33,620 nt of DNA from Frankia tisae (GTDB lineage Bacteria; Actinomycetota; Actinomycetes; Frankiales; Frankiaceae), in NCBI RefSeq assembly GCF_025403405.1, contig NZ_JANEZT010000022.1, positions 1 through 33,620 of the forward strand, written 5' to 3'. Position 1 is the first letter of the stretch. Each line of letters begins with the position of its first letter. The position numbers and the translations under genes were made by a program. Positions 4,526 to 33,138 of the stretch are shown one piece after another. The notes below the pieces were generated by a model, which was given only the letters and a program-made list of their open reading frames with translations, was not told the DNA's origin and did no database searches.

Positions 4526-5206
4526 TCAGCCGAAGGTGGCGTGCCAGGTCGCTGGGCCGACGATGCCGTCGACGGCCAGACCATGGGAGCCCTGGAAGGA
4601 ACGGGCGGCGGCGGCGGAGCGTGGTCCGAAGTGGCCGTCGACCGCGATCGGGTAACCGAGCTGGCTCATCCGGGTCTGCCAGGCACGCACATCGGCGCGA
4701 TCCTGCCTGACCAGCGCGGCCGTGAGGGTGCGGGTGAACCGCGGGGTGGTGGAGGCGACGGGGCTGACGGTCAGCGCGGCCCGCTGCGCCGAGCGCGACG
4801 CCTGCACCGCGCCGCTCGACGACGTGCCCCCCGCGAGTTGGTCGGCGCCCATCCCGCGGCCGCAGACCGGCCACTGGCCGAAGCCGGAACGCTGGGCGAG
4901 CCGGAGAGCGGCCTCGTCCTGGACTGCCGGGGCCGCCTGGTGTGGCAGGCCGGAGTAGCCGAGGCTGTGCCAGGTGCTGGCCGAGAACTGAAAGGCGCCA
5001 AAATATTTGTTTCCGGTGTTGGCCGTGTAGTCACCGCCGGACTCGCACTGTCGCAGACCCGCCCAGGTTGTCGCCGCCTCGGCCGGCTGGCTGACCGCAA
5101 GGGTGCCGCCCACCGCCGCCGCGAGAACCGGAGCAACCATGAGGGCCCGTGCCCTGATGCGGGTGCCGGCGCTCCATTGTCGGCCACTAGTACGTGCGTC
5201 GGACAT
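4526..5206 (-). CDS. Secreted Rpf-type transglycosylase with PG-binding domain (copy 2)
   Basis: This second resuscitation-promoting factor has 226 aa. A basic N terminus and hydrophobic helix (about 19-38) precede QPAEAA, a likely signal-peptidase site near residue 44. The Rpf domain (about 45-120) contains LRQCESGGDY with catalytic Glu55, then FGAFQFSASTWHSLGYSG and the Cys in WPVCGRGMG. The C-terminal ~60 residues form a clear peptidoglycan-binding domain (LGYPIAVDGHFGPRSAAAAR, GLAVDGIVGPATW), better preserved than in copy 1. The ATG at 5206 follows a GGAAGGA ribosome site about 11 bases upstream. The protein would act outside the membrane on peptidoglycan. It shares domain order with the gene at 3140-3859, which suggests tandem duplication including the regulatory leader. 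Confidence 0.94.
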   Translation of the reverse strand: MSDARTSGRQWSAGTRIRARALMVAPVLAAAVGGTLAVSQPAEAATTWAGLRQCESGGDYTANTGNKYFGAFQFSASTWHSLGYSGLPHQAAPAVQDEAALRLAQRSGFGQWPVCGRGMGADQLAGGTSSSGAVQASRSAQRAALTVSPVASTTPRFTRTLTAALVRQDRADVRAWQTRMSQLGYPIAVDGHFGPRSAAAARSFQGSHGLAVDGIVGPATWHATFG

Positions 5207-5224
5207 ATATTTGTGGTCCTTCCC

Positions 5225-5439
5225 CACGCCTGCGAGGTGAGCTGTCGGATTCGGGCTGGGAACTGCCCGGCCGTGCCAGGTATTCCTGGGGACGCGTGCT
5301 CGCACCGAAAGACCCTCGTGCGACCGTCACTCACGGCTTCACCCCGAGAGCATCGAATCCTTTCGACGCTCGGAGATGGTTCCCCCGTTCCTGCCGCCCA
5401 GGCTGGTGAAATCGCCGGTCGGGGGCAGGATTCGGCGTG
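5225..5439 (-). promoter_or_regulatory. ydaO/yuaA c-di-AMP riboswitch upstream of rpf copy 2
   Basis: Minus-strand blocks in order are CACGCCGAATCCTGCC from 5439, GGGGGAACCA (5377-5386), TCGGGGTGAAGCC (5335-5347), and CCGACAGCTCACCTCGCAGG within 5228-5249. The outer stem pairs CACGCC (5434-5439) with GGCGTG (5225-5230). This copy is closer to the ydaO consensus than the one at 3877-4094. The 3' strand of the outer stem runs directly into GGGGAAGGA, the ribosome site of the rpf gene, so ligand-stabilised folding could directly hide or expose that site. Confidence 0.92.
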
Positions 5440-9813: not shown

Positions 9814-11079
9814 GTGGTTCGGGCGGTGGTCACCGGCGCGGCCGGGTTTCTCGGCGGAGCGCTTGCGCATGCCCTGCGTCGGCAGGGTGCCGACGTCGTC
9901 GCGCTGGATGTCCGGCGCGCACCCGGCGTGGTGCAGGCCGATATCAGCAGGCCAGGTGACTGGGAGCGGGCGCTCGACGGGGCCGGGCTGGTCATCCACG
10001 CAGCCGCGGTGGGCACCGGCGGCGTCGCGGAGCTCACCCCGGTACGCCCGGGTCGCGCGGGGGCGCCGCTGCGGGTCCCCGGCGCCGAGGTCCGGCGGGT
10101 GACCCTCGGTGGCACCGCCGCCCTGCTCGACGCGGCCGCCCGTGCCGGGGTCGCCCGCTTCCTGCATCTGTCCTGCGTGGACGTGTTGCCGCTGGTGGCG
10201 CCGCGCGGCAGCGAGCGGGCCGAAGCCGGGCTGGTGGGCGGCCCGCTGGTGGACGAGACCGCCCCGGTCGGCCTCACCGGGGATGCACGGGCCGACGCAC
10301 TCGCCGCCGCCGAGCAGGCGGTGGGCTCGGCCGCAGCGCACGGGCTCGGTGCCACCGTCATGCGTATCGGCGATGCCTACGGCCCCCGCGCGGGGCGCTG
10401 GACGCTGTGGCCGGTGCTTCTCATGCGGGCCGGGCGGTTCGTGCTGGTGGACGGCGGCCGTGGCGTCCTCAGCCCGGTCCACGTCGACGACGTGGTCGCG
10501 GCGGTGACGGCGGTCGCCGCCGCGGATCGCGCCGCGGTCGCCGGCGAGGTGCTGCACGTCACCGGGGGTGAGCAGGTCAGCGCCGCCGAGTTCTTCGGGT
10601 ACTACAGCCGGATGTTGGATCTGCCCTCGCCGCGGTCCGTGCCGGGCCGGCTCGTCGAGGCCGTGGACGCGTGGGATCGGGTCCGGGCACTCGGCGCGGG
10701 CCGCCTGGCGGCACCGAGGCCGTCGGCACCGGCGGGCGCTGTGCCTGAGGCGGAGGCACTGGAGCTGGCGGGGGCCGCCGAGGTGGCCGCACCGCCCGGC
10801 GCCGCCCCCTCGGCGTCCGTGCCGGGCCGACCCGCCGGTGCCCTGGTCCGCGATCTCGGGGCCCGGCTCGTGGCCGGCGTCGACCCGCGCGCCCGGGTGG
10901 ACCTCGGGGCGCTCGGTCTGCGTGAACTGACCCGCGACGCCGGCTTCTCCATTTCCCGGATCGGCCGGCTGGCCGGCTGGTCGCCCGCCGTGTCGCTCGC
11001 CGACGGCATGGACCGCACCGAGTCGTGGCTGCGGGAACGGGGTCTGCTCGGGGTCCAGGAGCCGTCCCGCCGTGGGTGA
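9814..11079 (+). CDS. Extended SDR (NAD-dependent epimerase/dehydratase-like), atypical
   Basis: The 421-aa product opens with a Rossmann motif TGAAGFLGG (residues 7-15) and shows the extended-SDR landmarks VIHAAA (60-65), VTLGGTAALLDAA (96-108), FLHLSC (116-121) and MRIGDAYGP (183-191). A substrate-side block LSPVHVDDVV matches epimerases and 3-beta-HSD-like enzymes. The catalytic YxxxK is missing: aligning LAAAEQAV with the usual KAAAE places Leu163 at the Lys and Arg159 at the Tyr. Residues about 290-345 form an Ala/Pro insertion. The start is GTG at 9814 with GGAGGA six to eight bases upstream. It overlaps the following GNAT-like gene by 8 bp, so the two are probably co-translated. The substrate is unknown, and a binding or regulatory role is possible given the lost residues. 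Confidence 0.8.
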   Translation: MVRAVVTGAAGFLGGALAHALRRQGADVVALDVRRAPGVVQADISRPGDWERALDGAGLVIHAAAVGTGGVAELTPVRPGRAGAPLRVPGAEVRRVTLGGTAALLDAAARAGVARFLHLSCVDVLPLVAPRGSERAEAGLVGGPLVDETAPVGLTGDARADALAAAEQAVGSAAAHGLGATVMRIGDAYGPRAGRWTLWPVLLMRAGRFVLVDGGRGVLSPVHVDDVVAAVTAVAAADRAAVAGEVLHVTGGEQVSAAEFFGYYSRMLDLPSPRSVPGRLVEAVDAWDRVRALGAGRLAAPRPSAPAGAVPEAEALELAGAAEVAAPPGAAPSASVPGRPAGALVRDLGARLVAGVDPRARVDLGALGLRELTRDAGFSISRIGRLAGWSPAVSLADGMDRTESWLRERGLLGVQEPSRRG

Positions 11080-11641
11080 AGGGCCGACCCTCACCACCCC
11101 CCGGCTGCTCGCCCTGCCACTCACCATCTGGAACGCCGGGTATGTCGCCGAGGAGCTCGCGCCCACGCTGGCGTTCACGGCGGTCGTCGCCCGGTCGGGC
11201 GGACGCGGCGGGGACGGAGTCGGCCCCCACGGCGGGATCGTCGGCACGGATCCGCACGCCGCCGCCCCGGACCCGCTCGACCCGGCCGGGTCGCTGCGCC
11301 GTGAGCTGCGCCGCCGGGCCGGCGCCGGCCGGTCGGTGCTGACCTGGGTGCTGCGGCTCAAGTCAGGGCCGGCGGCCGTCGGTCTGGTCGCCGCGGACAC
11401 CCAGGGGCGCCGCGCGGTCGTCGGCGTGTCGATTGTGCTCGGGTGCCGGCACGAGGGCTACGCGACCGAGGCGGTCCGCGCTGTCGCCGGCTGGTTCGAG
11501 TACCGCGGCGCTCTGGTGGAGACGAGGATCCGCCGCGGCGACGGGATCGGGAAGCGGCTGGGACAGGCGACCTCGTTCGTGCCTACCCCCGTCCTGATAG
11601 CCGACTGGTGGCGGATCTGGCTGCGCCCGCCAACGGGTTGA
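11072..11641 (+). CDS. GNAT-family acetyltransferase-like protein
   Basis: The 189-aa product has the layout of RimJ-type GNAT N-acetyltransferases. It begins with a TLTTPRLLALPLT strand, has a central WVLRLKSGPAAVGLVAADTQ strand pair, and an acetyl-CoA-binding-like helix in CRHEGYATEAVRAVAGWFEY. It ends with VETRIRRGDGIGKRLGQATSFV, resembling the 'N..S..vlekl' segment. The usual Asn-x-x-Ser is replaced by GDGIGKRLG, and a Gly/Pro-rich insertion occupies about residues 40-70, so activity is not certain. The GTG start at 11072 has AGGAG about 10 bases upstream inside the preceding gene, with an 8-bp overlap. The function is presumably linked to the SDR gene. Confidence 0.65.
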   Translation: MGEGPTLTTPRLLALPLTIWNAGYVAEELAPTLAFTAVVARSGGRGGDGVGPHGGIVGTDPHAAAPDPLDPAGSLRRELRRRAGAGRSVLTWVLRLKSGPAAVGLVAADTQGRRAVVGVSIVLGCRHEGYATEAVRAVAGWFEYRGALVETRIRRGDGIGKRLGQATSFVPTPVLIADWWRIWLRPPTG

Positions 11642-12077
11642 TCATCCAGGCGGTTACTCACCGTCATGTGGCTCGGCCGCTGCCCATCGGCGCGGCGCCA
11701 CCTCGGCCGTCCCGGCTGGTCACGCGCCCGGCCCGGCCCATTTCATCCTTGCCAGACCGAAAATCCCTGCCCACCGTCGTTGCATGTCCTCGCGTGGAGT
11801 TGTGTCGGTGTTGCTGCGGTGGTGGCCTTCTGTCAGCCTGGCGGCATCCGTCTTCTCGTAGTTTCGTCGGCACAGGGCGAGCGGTGGACACGCCGCGACG
11901 GCAGCCCCCTGTTCAGACCGTGATGCCCTGGGGCACCATGTAAAGCGATGTCGCGACCGTTGGCCGACGGGTCGAGTGAGGGCGGGGCGTCCGAGACGGT
12001 CCGTGGGAGGTCCGCCTCGCGTCCGGGGAGGGGAGCCCGAACGGTTCGGCGCTACCTGCGCCTGGGAGGTCAGCAGC
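11642..12077. other. Gap upstream of the CD-NTase-like gene
   Basis: No gene is supported. Around 11740-11880 the DNA is noticeably less GC-rich than its neighbours, and open frames there are short and unconvincing. The segment 11976-12077 is G-rich leader sequence ending in the strong ribosome site GGGAGGT (12064-12070). A TTCAGA at about 11913 and TGTAAA near 11940 could be weak promoter elements. I do not trust them as a pair. Confidence 0.4.
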
Positions 12078-13151
12078 ATGAGCGTGGATACCCCTCGGGG
12101 GACACCGGCCGGAATCCGGCCGGGAGAGGTCACCTACGACCATCTGATCATTCCGTCGCACTGGCGGCGGTCCAACGAGTCCACGCCTGGCGCGCCCAAC
12201 GCGTTGTTTCCACCCGATGGCGGGGCACCCGCCCAGTCATCCCTGCCGCCGATCAACCCGACGACCGGAGCGATGACCGGTCCCCTGTTGGTCGGGACGA
12301 CGGCACGGGCCTTCGCCAAGCTCGATGATCTGATCCGGCTCAGCGCCGAGGACAAGGCCGTCATCGCCGCCCGCCGGGACGAGGCCGAGCGGGCGCTGCG
12401 GGCGATCTTCCCGCCCCGGTGCGCGCTGCCGCTGGTCGGCGTCGCGACGATCGGGTCGGCCGGGCGGGACACCATGATCCGGCCGCTGGACGAAGTCGAC
12501 ATCTTCGCCGTCTTCTCCGCCGCGAACAGCGCCTGGAAGCGTTTTCGCTGGGACTCGCGCGACCTGGTGCTCTGCGTGCGCAACGCGATCGGCGGCGAGC
12601 GGATCCAGACGATCGGCAGCCGCGGCCAGGCGCTGCGCATCGTCTACGATTCGCCGCCCGACGTGCACCTCGTCCCCGCGTTCGACCACCCCCGGGCCGG
12701 CTATGTCATGCCCGACCGGGTCGGCGGCTGGCTGCCGACCCGCCCGGAGCGGCACACGAGCTGGACCGCCGACCTCGGCCCTCGGGTGATCTCGGCGGTG
12801 CGCCTGATCAAGGCGTGGAACCGGGTGTGCGGCAGCCATCTGCGCTCGTTCCACATCGAGGCGCTCGCCGGGCAGGTCCTCGCCGGGCGCGGGCTCAACA
12901 CCCGGCAGGGGCTCGCCGAGGTCTTCCGCCACATGGACGAGGTCGGTCTGGTGGCGGCGGACCCGGCGGACGTCGGCGGTGACCTGTCCGCCTACCTGCG
13001 CCCCGAGGACGTCGACGCGCTCGCGGAGACCATCCGGGCCGCCCGGATCTACTCGGTGAAGGCGGTCGAAGCGGAACAGGCCGGGGAGCACGAGGAGGCC
13101 GTGGCCCTGTGGGGCTCGGTCTTCGGCCCGGAGTTCCCGACCTTCGGCTGA
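12078..13151 (+). CDS. Stand-alone CD-NTase-like nucleotidyltransferase
   Basis: This 357-aa protein has the core pattern of the cGAS/DncV-like nucleotidyltransferases that make cyclic or linear oligonucleotide signals. GSAGRDTMIRPLDEVDIF at about 126-143 holds the Gly-Ser of the nucleotide-binding turn (126-127) and the first two acidic metal ligands (Glu139/Asp141, with Asp138 adjacent). DVHLVPAF at 195-202 gives the third acidic residue, Asp195. MPDRVGGWLPTRPERH and LIKAWN (243-248), followed by SFHIEALAGQVL, match the helical C-terminal lobe typical of SMODS/OAS-like enzymes. The ATG at 12078 has GGGAGGT seven bases upstream. No CBASS effector, Cap2/Cap3 or HORMA/TRIP13 gene adjoins it: the upstream neighbour is the GNAT-like gene and downstream is a convergent MMPL gene. 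The product and role are unknown. Confidence 0.75.
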   Translation: MSVDTPRGTPAGIRPGEVTYDHLIIPSHWRRSNESTPGAPNALFPPDGGAPAQSSLPPINPTTGAMTGPLLVGTTARAFAKLDDLIRLSAEDKAVIAARRDEAERALRAIFPPRCALPLVGVATIGSAGRDTMIRPLDEVDIFAVFSAANSAWKRFRWDSRDLVLCVRNAIGGERIQTIGSRGQALRIVYDSPPDVHLVPAFDHPRAGYVMPDRVGGWLPTRPERHTSWTADLGPRVISAVRLIKAWNRVCGSHLRSFHIEALAGQVLAGRGLNTRQGLAEVFRHMDEVGLVAADPADVGGDLSAYLRPEDVDALAETIRAARIYSVKAVEAEQAGEHEEAVALWGSVFGPEFPTFG

Positions 13152-33064: not shown

Positions 33065-33138
33065 GCGGGCGTAGTTCAGAGGCAGAACACGAGCTTCCCA
33101 AGCTTGCAACGCGGGTTCGATTCCCGTCGCCCGCTCCA
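33065..33138 (+). tRNA. tRNA-Gly (anticodon CCC)
   Basis: The cloverleaf is complete. The acceptor stem pairs GCGGGCG (33065-33071) with CGCCCGC (33128-33134). The D stem is GTTC/GAAC, the anticodon stem CGAGC/GCTTG has loop TTCCCAA, and the T arm is GCGGG-TTCGATT-CCCGT. The anticodon at the loop centre is CCC, reading GGG glycine codons. The discriminator T and an encoded CCA (33136-33138) follow. A weak hairpin CCGGC/GCCGG at 33156-33169 downstream may terminate it. Confidence 0.97.

Follow-up and report, generated by a model that had tools for sequence, protein, structure and literature searches.

We analyzed a 33,620-nt stretch of Frankia tisae DNA (the window) in which a CD-NTase homologue is encoded downstream of an SDR gene and a GNAT-like gene on the same strand (Table 1). 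The CD-NTase gene runs from an ATG start codon to a TGA stop codon. A GGGAGG sequence lies 8 bases ahead of the ATG, confirming the strong ribosome site reported in an earlier note on this DNA; all 17 aligned leaders share its Shine-Dalgarno core GGAGG, and the ATG at 12078 is the preferred start codon. In a Pfam scan of ten neighboring window ORFs, we found no effector-like, Cap2 or Cap3 family, in agreement with the note's statement that no CBASS effector adjoins the gene. The ten comprise epimerase, GNAT, MMPL, CAP, VTT, Indigoidine_A, PNPOx and DUF3151 proteins and two transglycosylases. The remaining window genes were identified by inspecting their translations; those called purA, fba, clpB, hspR, dnaJ, grpE, dnaK and PsiG here are presumably these genes. 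The window also holds a c-di-AMP riboswitch (RF00379, 53.7 bits) at 5226-5437 on the minus strand, just upstream of a transglycosylase ORF (4526-5305, PF06737) whose mechanical start it overlaps, a known type of pairing, and a tRNA gene (RF00005 in Rfam, 65.5 bits) at 33065-33135 on the plus strand.

Table 1. Features of the CD-NTase locus, in window coordinates
Feature	Position	Strand	Evidence or distribution
SDR, NAD-dependent epimerase family, first of trio	9814..11079	+	PF01370, E 3e-21; 20/20 loci
GNAT-like protein, gene overlapping SDR gene, second of trio	11072..11641	+	PF13302, E 3e-4, below its cut-off
Upstream region of ~220 nt, far more conserved than the DNA beyond; holds GGGAGG at 12064-12069	11858..12077	+	Nine cluster-1 strains
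Frankiaceae core CD-NTase homologue, 357 aa	12078..13151	+	PF18144, PDLC00823; 33/35 order genomes
N-terminal conserved motif EVTYDHLIIPSHWRR, residues 17-31	12126..12170	+	Nearly invariant, 11 rows
GS motif G126, S127, expected donor phosphate contact	12453..12458	+	33/33 Frankiaceae genomes
E139-V-D141, first two catalytic positions; D141 corresponds to an LpCdnE metal B ligand	12492..12500	+	33/33
D195-V-H197, His at the third catalytic-carboxylate column	12660..12668	+	33/33 Frankiaceae
Putative Lid 1 T221 to Lid 2 H226, spacing as in BcCdnD T150/H155	12738..12755	+	Invariant, 33/33

The protein matches the Pfam SMODS family over residues 76-232 with 39.8 bits, passing the curated cut-off of 26.5, and its best PADLOC model is the CBASS cyclase PDLC00823 (E 1e-62, residues 73-357); both bear out its proposed CD-NTase-like identity. 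Against the NCBI CBASS cyclase equivalog model NF041117 it scored 87.7 bits, below the threshold of 200. A better match to another nucleotidyltransferase class, which had been named as the finding that would speak against this identity, did not appear: the archaeal CCA model from NCBIfam gave 12.6 bits against a cut-off of 281.3, and neither Pfam nor NCBIfam yielded an MNT or aminoglycoside nucleotidyltransferase family. The predicted GS motif, LIKAWN block (K245, W247 and N248) and RSFHIEA block (S257) are present, as is a C-terminal FGPEFP. Because of the SMODS, PADLOC and CdnD sequence matches, the claim of CD-NTase homology stands. Judged from its sequence, the protein is a real CD-NTase (SMODS) homologue, nearest to clade D-type CBASS cyclases, and it is to be filed as a divergent CD-NTase homologue rather than as CBASS. 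Two AlphaFold runs with shallow alignments both gave poor models (mean pLDDT 47.2 and 50.7). A Foldseek search with the latter placed PaCdnD and EcCdnC at the top and DncV near the top, at a TM of about 0.40 and an rmsd of about 14; matches of a model of such low confidence offer at most support for the topology.

We found one orthologue, at 66-100% identity, in 33 of the 35 genomes of the order, all of which belong to a single family, Frankiaceae. The two genomes without one are G015 (63% complete) and G018 (3.0 Mb, 94% complete); second matches are pieces in G009, G023 and G043 and weak matches to other cyclases in G045 and G049. Named records covering 23 loci place the gene in Frankia, Parafrankia, Pseudofrankia and cluster-2 'Candidatus Frankia'. 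Of 34 genomes searched with the SMODS family, 31 showed a match; in G004 and G008 the gene escaped this search but was recovered by protein and PADLOC searches. Wider searches scored the best few candidates per genome. Among 393 genomes of the class (E 1e-10), 36 had a match, namely the 33 and three at 28-31% identity, and a profile search of 396 genomes of the phylum returned the F. tisae genome and five weak matches. Outside Frankiaceae, the class search met ordinary cyclases only, at about 30% identity.

The order SDR-GNAT-CD-NTase on one strand is kept at 20 of 20 loci (20 of 22 matched genomes, with the F. tisae genome itself and G008 set aside). Where the sequence reaches far enough, the trio is flanked on one side by an fba-like gene and on the other by MMPL (18 of 20 loci), PsiG, clpB and genes of the dnaK region; G010 (L034) has no MMPL, and in G016 (L043) the contig ends first. 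A PsiG query in G015, G016 and G018 gave no match, an uninformative search. Instead of the patchy, mobile distribution typical of CBASS, we thus see near-universal presence and fixed synteny: the gene is core, not a stray defense gene, and its placement in conserved core genome holds. The SDR and GNAT genes are indeed its neighbors, but they look less incidental than was supposed. Among 197 genomes of the class, 16 of them listed Frankiaceae, the SDR (E 1e-40) and the GNAT (E 1e-10) each occur in the same 15, all Frankiaceae and all carrying the CD-NTase; the sixteenth, G018, lacks all three.

Substitution patterns point to strong conservation. Nei-Gojobori dN/dS was 0.09-0.27 for the whole gene and 0.02-0.13 for residues 113-265 (11 of 17 pairs). 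Across nine distant loci, mean identity was 77.5% for the CD-NTase, 54.2% for the SDR and 52.0% for the GNAT (nine loci each), 59.9% for MMPL (eight), 86.3% for clpB (six) and 87.0% for fba (eight). The CD-NTase value exceeds the inter-cluster AAI of 66.5-72.2 given in one study (PMC9680954). Apparent inserts in L074 and L077/L084, considered as broken gene copies, are runs of N and no real breaks.

Residues 1-70 have no match in Pfam or PADLOC, as the earlier note had said of the N-terminal ~70 residues, but the segment does have conserved features. Across 11 rows from four genera (Frankia, Parafrankia, Pseudofrankia and cluster 2), residues 17-31 and 67-84 hardly vary, in comparisons that also took in 21 of the 23 loci, L074 and L077 being omitted; G016, of a fifth genus, lacks the residues 17-31 motif. 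This motif is likely a docking or regulatory peptide. When we searched the F. tisae genome for a paralogue of the motif, the gene itself was the sole good match; the next best, at E 0.03 with an internal stop, we rejected.

The region upstream of the gene shows a conservation of its own. In nine cluster-1 strains, 11858-12077 differs at 3-16 of 109-110 positions plus 4-11 of 98, and the DNA further upstream at 28-69 of 85-110; in strains of other clusters the differences are more numerous (27-51 of 94-110 and 28-37 of 85-91). A hairpin, GGCGC-GCGCC, lies ahead of the Shine-Dalgarno sequence. No Rfam family was hit (the best chance match had E 4.9), covariation was weak in the 13 pairs that RNAalifold proposed, and a scan for a sigma-70 promoter or terminator found neither. 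We also considered that the region might be coding: cluster 1 has an in-frame, mostly synonymous stretch, RVRGGEPERFGATCAWEVSS, which the other clusters do not keep and which has no consistent start codon.

In multiple alignments with relatives, the catalytic columns fall on E139, D141 and H197, and each of these residues, as well as D195, was found in 33 of 33 Frankiaceae genomes by tblastn mapping (with partial coverage in G014, G020, G023, G016, G044 and G043). The 33 other rows, from plasmids, class and phylum genomes and two accessory Frankiaceae cyclases, have Asp at the first and second columns and Asp or Glu at the third. This alignment took one best ORF per locus and combined 31 loci (one of them core) with three plasmid and three core rows; 20 relative loci were drawn from 32 non-Frankiaceae genomes. 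Rows of an earlier alignment that were not carried over (L087, L088, L089/L129 and L131) are all D-D-D. An acid thus occupies the third column in 33 of 34 relatives, the exception being a Tyr in the viral-contig cyclase L193. Pairwise local alignments, which are noisier and cruder, aligned position 197 in 27 of the 33 outside rows, with D or E in 23 and F, P, H or V in the others; at position 139, the 27 outside rows had D in 24, E in 2 and G in 1.

Set against the three carboxylates of a catalytic CD-NTase (D/E, D, D/E), the Frankiaceae protein has E139 and D141, and its third residue is H197. The 'third Asp in DVHLVPAF' of the earlier note is D195, two residues before the catalytic column. 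The GS...DEVDIF core fares better, with both GS and E139-V-D141 in place, but its catalytic positions read Glu-x-Asp, not Asp-x-Asp. Human cGAS also has Glu at the first catalytic position. The key mechanistic claim of an intact active-site triad is wrong, E-D-H standing where D-D-D/E was expected; the finding is nonetheless a real one, and of greater interest than an orphan CBASS gene would be.

Published structures indicate what these changes could mean. In a report on LpCdnE, Mg-A is bound by Asp67 and the third Asp, Asp139, Mg-B is bound by Asp67, and the second Asp ligates both metals (PMC10442399). A study of BcCdnD gives its motifs as PDVDI and LDL and its lid residues as T150 and H155, a Thr/His pair described for cA3-making clade C/D enzymes; we assigned T221 and H226 as putative lids by their spacing from that account (PMC13424991). 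The same study calls the BcCdnD D73N mutant catalytically inactive and describes its co-crystallization with pppApA alone or with ATP (PMC13424991). The Frankiaceae protein shows no variation at the positions predicted to bind the donor nucleotide and metal B. Invariant donor-site residues beside an altered metal-A site suggest that the protein binds a nucleotide without efficient cyclization. H197 is itself invariant rather than drifting and may have a catalytic or metal-binding job, and D195 could reach the metal site; with both so strictly conserved, the protein may yet be an active enzyme of different chemistry.

We searched the Frankiaceae genomes for two CBASS effector families, SAVED and S-4TM, which occur in 6 of 34 (5 over cut-off) and 4 of 34 genomes, respectively. 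In G013, G044, G047 and G049, no more than 300 bases separate SAVED from a second SMODS match; these are ordinary accessory CBASS. Two S-4TM genes are at G000:C28:8285-9133 (L127), in the F. tisae genome itself, and G003:C1:1697500-1698348 (L128), and PADLOC found no cyclase match in one and three neighboring ORFs, respectively; the single SMODS match in each of these two genomes is the core gene. Neither SAVED nor S-4TM is a family-wide effector partner. The suggestion that the enzyme serves distant effectors does not hold as a general rule for these families, given how few genomes carry them compared with the 33 of 35 that carry the gene.

In a quick tree of 43 rows with long branches, the 10 core rows group as a single clade (SH-aLRT 100), whose sister (SH-aLRT 91) is a cyclase of the Arthrobacter plasmid pJ349-116 (L078). 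That cyclase adjoins an S-4TM effector and a second cyclase, the two cyclases lying around the S-4TM gene. We inspected the neighbors of eight relatives. A 4TM effector adjoins six of them (L078, L080, L081, L082, L173 and L174); next to L083 are E1-E2/E2 genes, and next to L079 a DncV-like gene and a hypothetical protein. A search of viral contigs for distant relatives yielded one locus, L193 (954-4304), with a DncV-like ORF, the second cyclase with Tyr at the third column, and then a 315-aa ORF that by eye resembles a membrane protein. L193 is possibly a two-cyclase CBASS with one inactive member. Loss of the third Asp alone does not amount to repurposing, because the Tyr-bearing cyclase of L193 sits between DncV-like and membrane-protein-like ORFs.

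In the Frankiaceae protein, a missing adjacent effector coincides with His in place of one catalytic acid, which suggests an immune enzyme turned housekeeping nucleotide-binding protein. On balance we favor, though by no means firmly, a domestication in the ancestor of Frankiaceae, by which a CBASS cyclase of the S-4TM type would have turned into a regulator that binds nucleotides, its effector and its catalytic metal-A site having been lost. The S-4TM-associated cyclase would have been captured at this chromosomal site in that ancestor; its effector would then have been lost and the cyclase become a vertically inherited core protein. By sequence it still belongs to the CD-NTase family and has the residues expected to bind a donor nucleotide with metal B (GS, D141, K245, S257 and the putative lid T221/H226), while its metal-A site is changed, the first Asp to Glu and the third Asp to His. 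Most likely, it would bind a nucleoside triphosphate, probably ATP, without efficient synthesis of a cyclic oligonucleotide, and its bound or unbound state would regulate a partner through the N-terminal motif, perhaps the adjoining SDR/GNAT pair.

An enzyme that is still active with an unusual site is the less likely case, yet one with a real chance. Here E139, D141 and D195 or H197 would hold the metal, and the enzyme, serving a housekeeping purpose, would either make a nucleotide signal or modify a protein or small molecule with a nucleotide. Invariance of E139, D195 and H197 in all 33 genomes is more than a pseudoenzyme under drift would require, and the Arthrobacter relative has the strand residues swapped, with HVD for DVH. 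Against this, the relatives keep an acid at the third column with the one exception given above, and the corresponding Asp of LpCdnE ligates metal A (PMC10442399). The trio could instead be a lineage-specific metabolic unit, for instance one for a modified nucleotide sugar, in which the CD-NTase fold would bind or produce the nucleotide-linked substrate. Its shared distribution, including the joint absence from G018, and its fixed order speak for such a unit. Because 436 bp and its own conserved 5' region precede the CD-NTase gene, however, this gene is not obviously co-transcribed with the SDR and GNAT genes; these two also evolve much faster than the CD-NTase, and the GNAT call is weak, so that we consider a metabolic unit improbable. 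Very little likelihood attaches to a normal CBASS cyclase with its effector elsewhere in the genome, for which the S-4TM gene on contig 28 in F. tisae, unlinked to the core gene, would be an example. The S-4TM genes of G000 and G003, with no cyclase match in their scanned neighbors and the core gene as the sole SMODS match, are what such an arrangement would look like, but the scarcity of S-4TM and SAVED disfavors it as a family-wide rule, and the altered catalytic column in 33 of 33 genomes and the low NF041117 score also count against it.

Domestication into a nucleotide-binding regulator can be carried further, into a version that we offer tentatively and hold to be rather doubtful in its entirety. 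An immune cyclase would have been domesticated once, at the base of this plant-symbiont family, into a non-cyclizing Glu-Asp-His nucleotide sensor, fixed beside an equally restricted SDR/GNAT pair and under conserved 5' control, as a prokaryotic counterpart of eukaryotic non-catalytic cGAS-fold proteins.

CD-NTases are known mainly as patchy, horizontally moving defense enzymes. If our reading is true, a family-wide, vertically inherited, effector-less and site-altered member would place the cGAS/DncV fold also in bacterial housekeeping use, and would provide a tractable case, in symbiotic, non-pathogenic hosts, for a role of a bacterial CD-NTase other than signaling cell death. For annotation pipelines, it would mean that a SMODS match does not equal CBASS. 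In a literature search whose coverage left out most subscription journals, we found no paper joining CD-NTases and Frankia, and none of the matches listed described a bacterial CD-NTase that is core, effector-less or inactive.

Among known systems, the protein resembles clade D CD-NTases (PaCdnD, 6P82/6P8J/6P8U; BcCdnD, 9SA4). By sequence, P. aeruginosa CdnD (6P82, 6P8U) is its nearest solved structure, matched at E 4e-7 with the protein alone and at E 3.6e-67 with a profile of the protein and seven relatives, in which the relatives dominate. Shared with clade D are the GS motif, the second Asp, the K/N block, the lid Thr and His, and the C-terminal FGP(E/K)FP. The Frankiaceae protein differs in having LDEVDI for PDVDI and VHL for LDL and in its 70-residue N-terminal extension, and its gene is core rather than patchy, with no effector or Cap gene seen beside it. 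Among S-4TM CBASS cyclases (PDLC00823), that of pJ349-116 aligns at 33.3% identity over residues 74-353, gap-free through the DVH/HVD strand; unlike the Frankiaceae protein, it is D-D-D and is encoded on a conjugative plasmid with an S-4TM effector as its neighbor. MiD51 and NF45/NF90 are CD-NTase-fold proteins that bind nucleotides and are considered non-catalytic. They belong to the same superfamily and appeared in the Foldseek search with our low-confidence model, NF45/NF90 from rank 19 and MiD51 from rank 38, but they are eukaryotic and of separate lineages, so the likeness is one of idea, not of descent.
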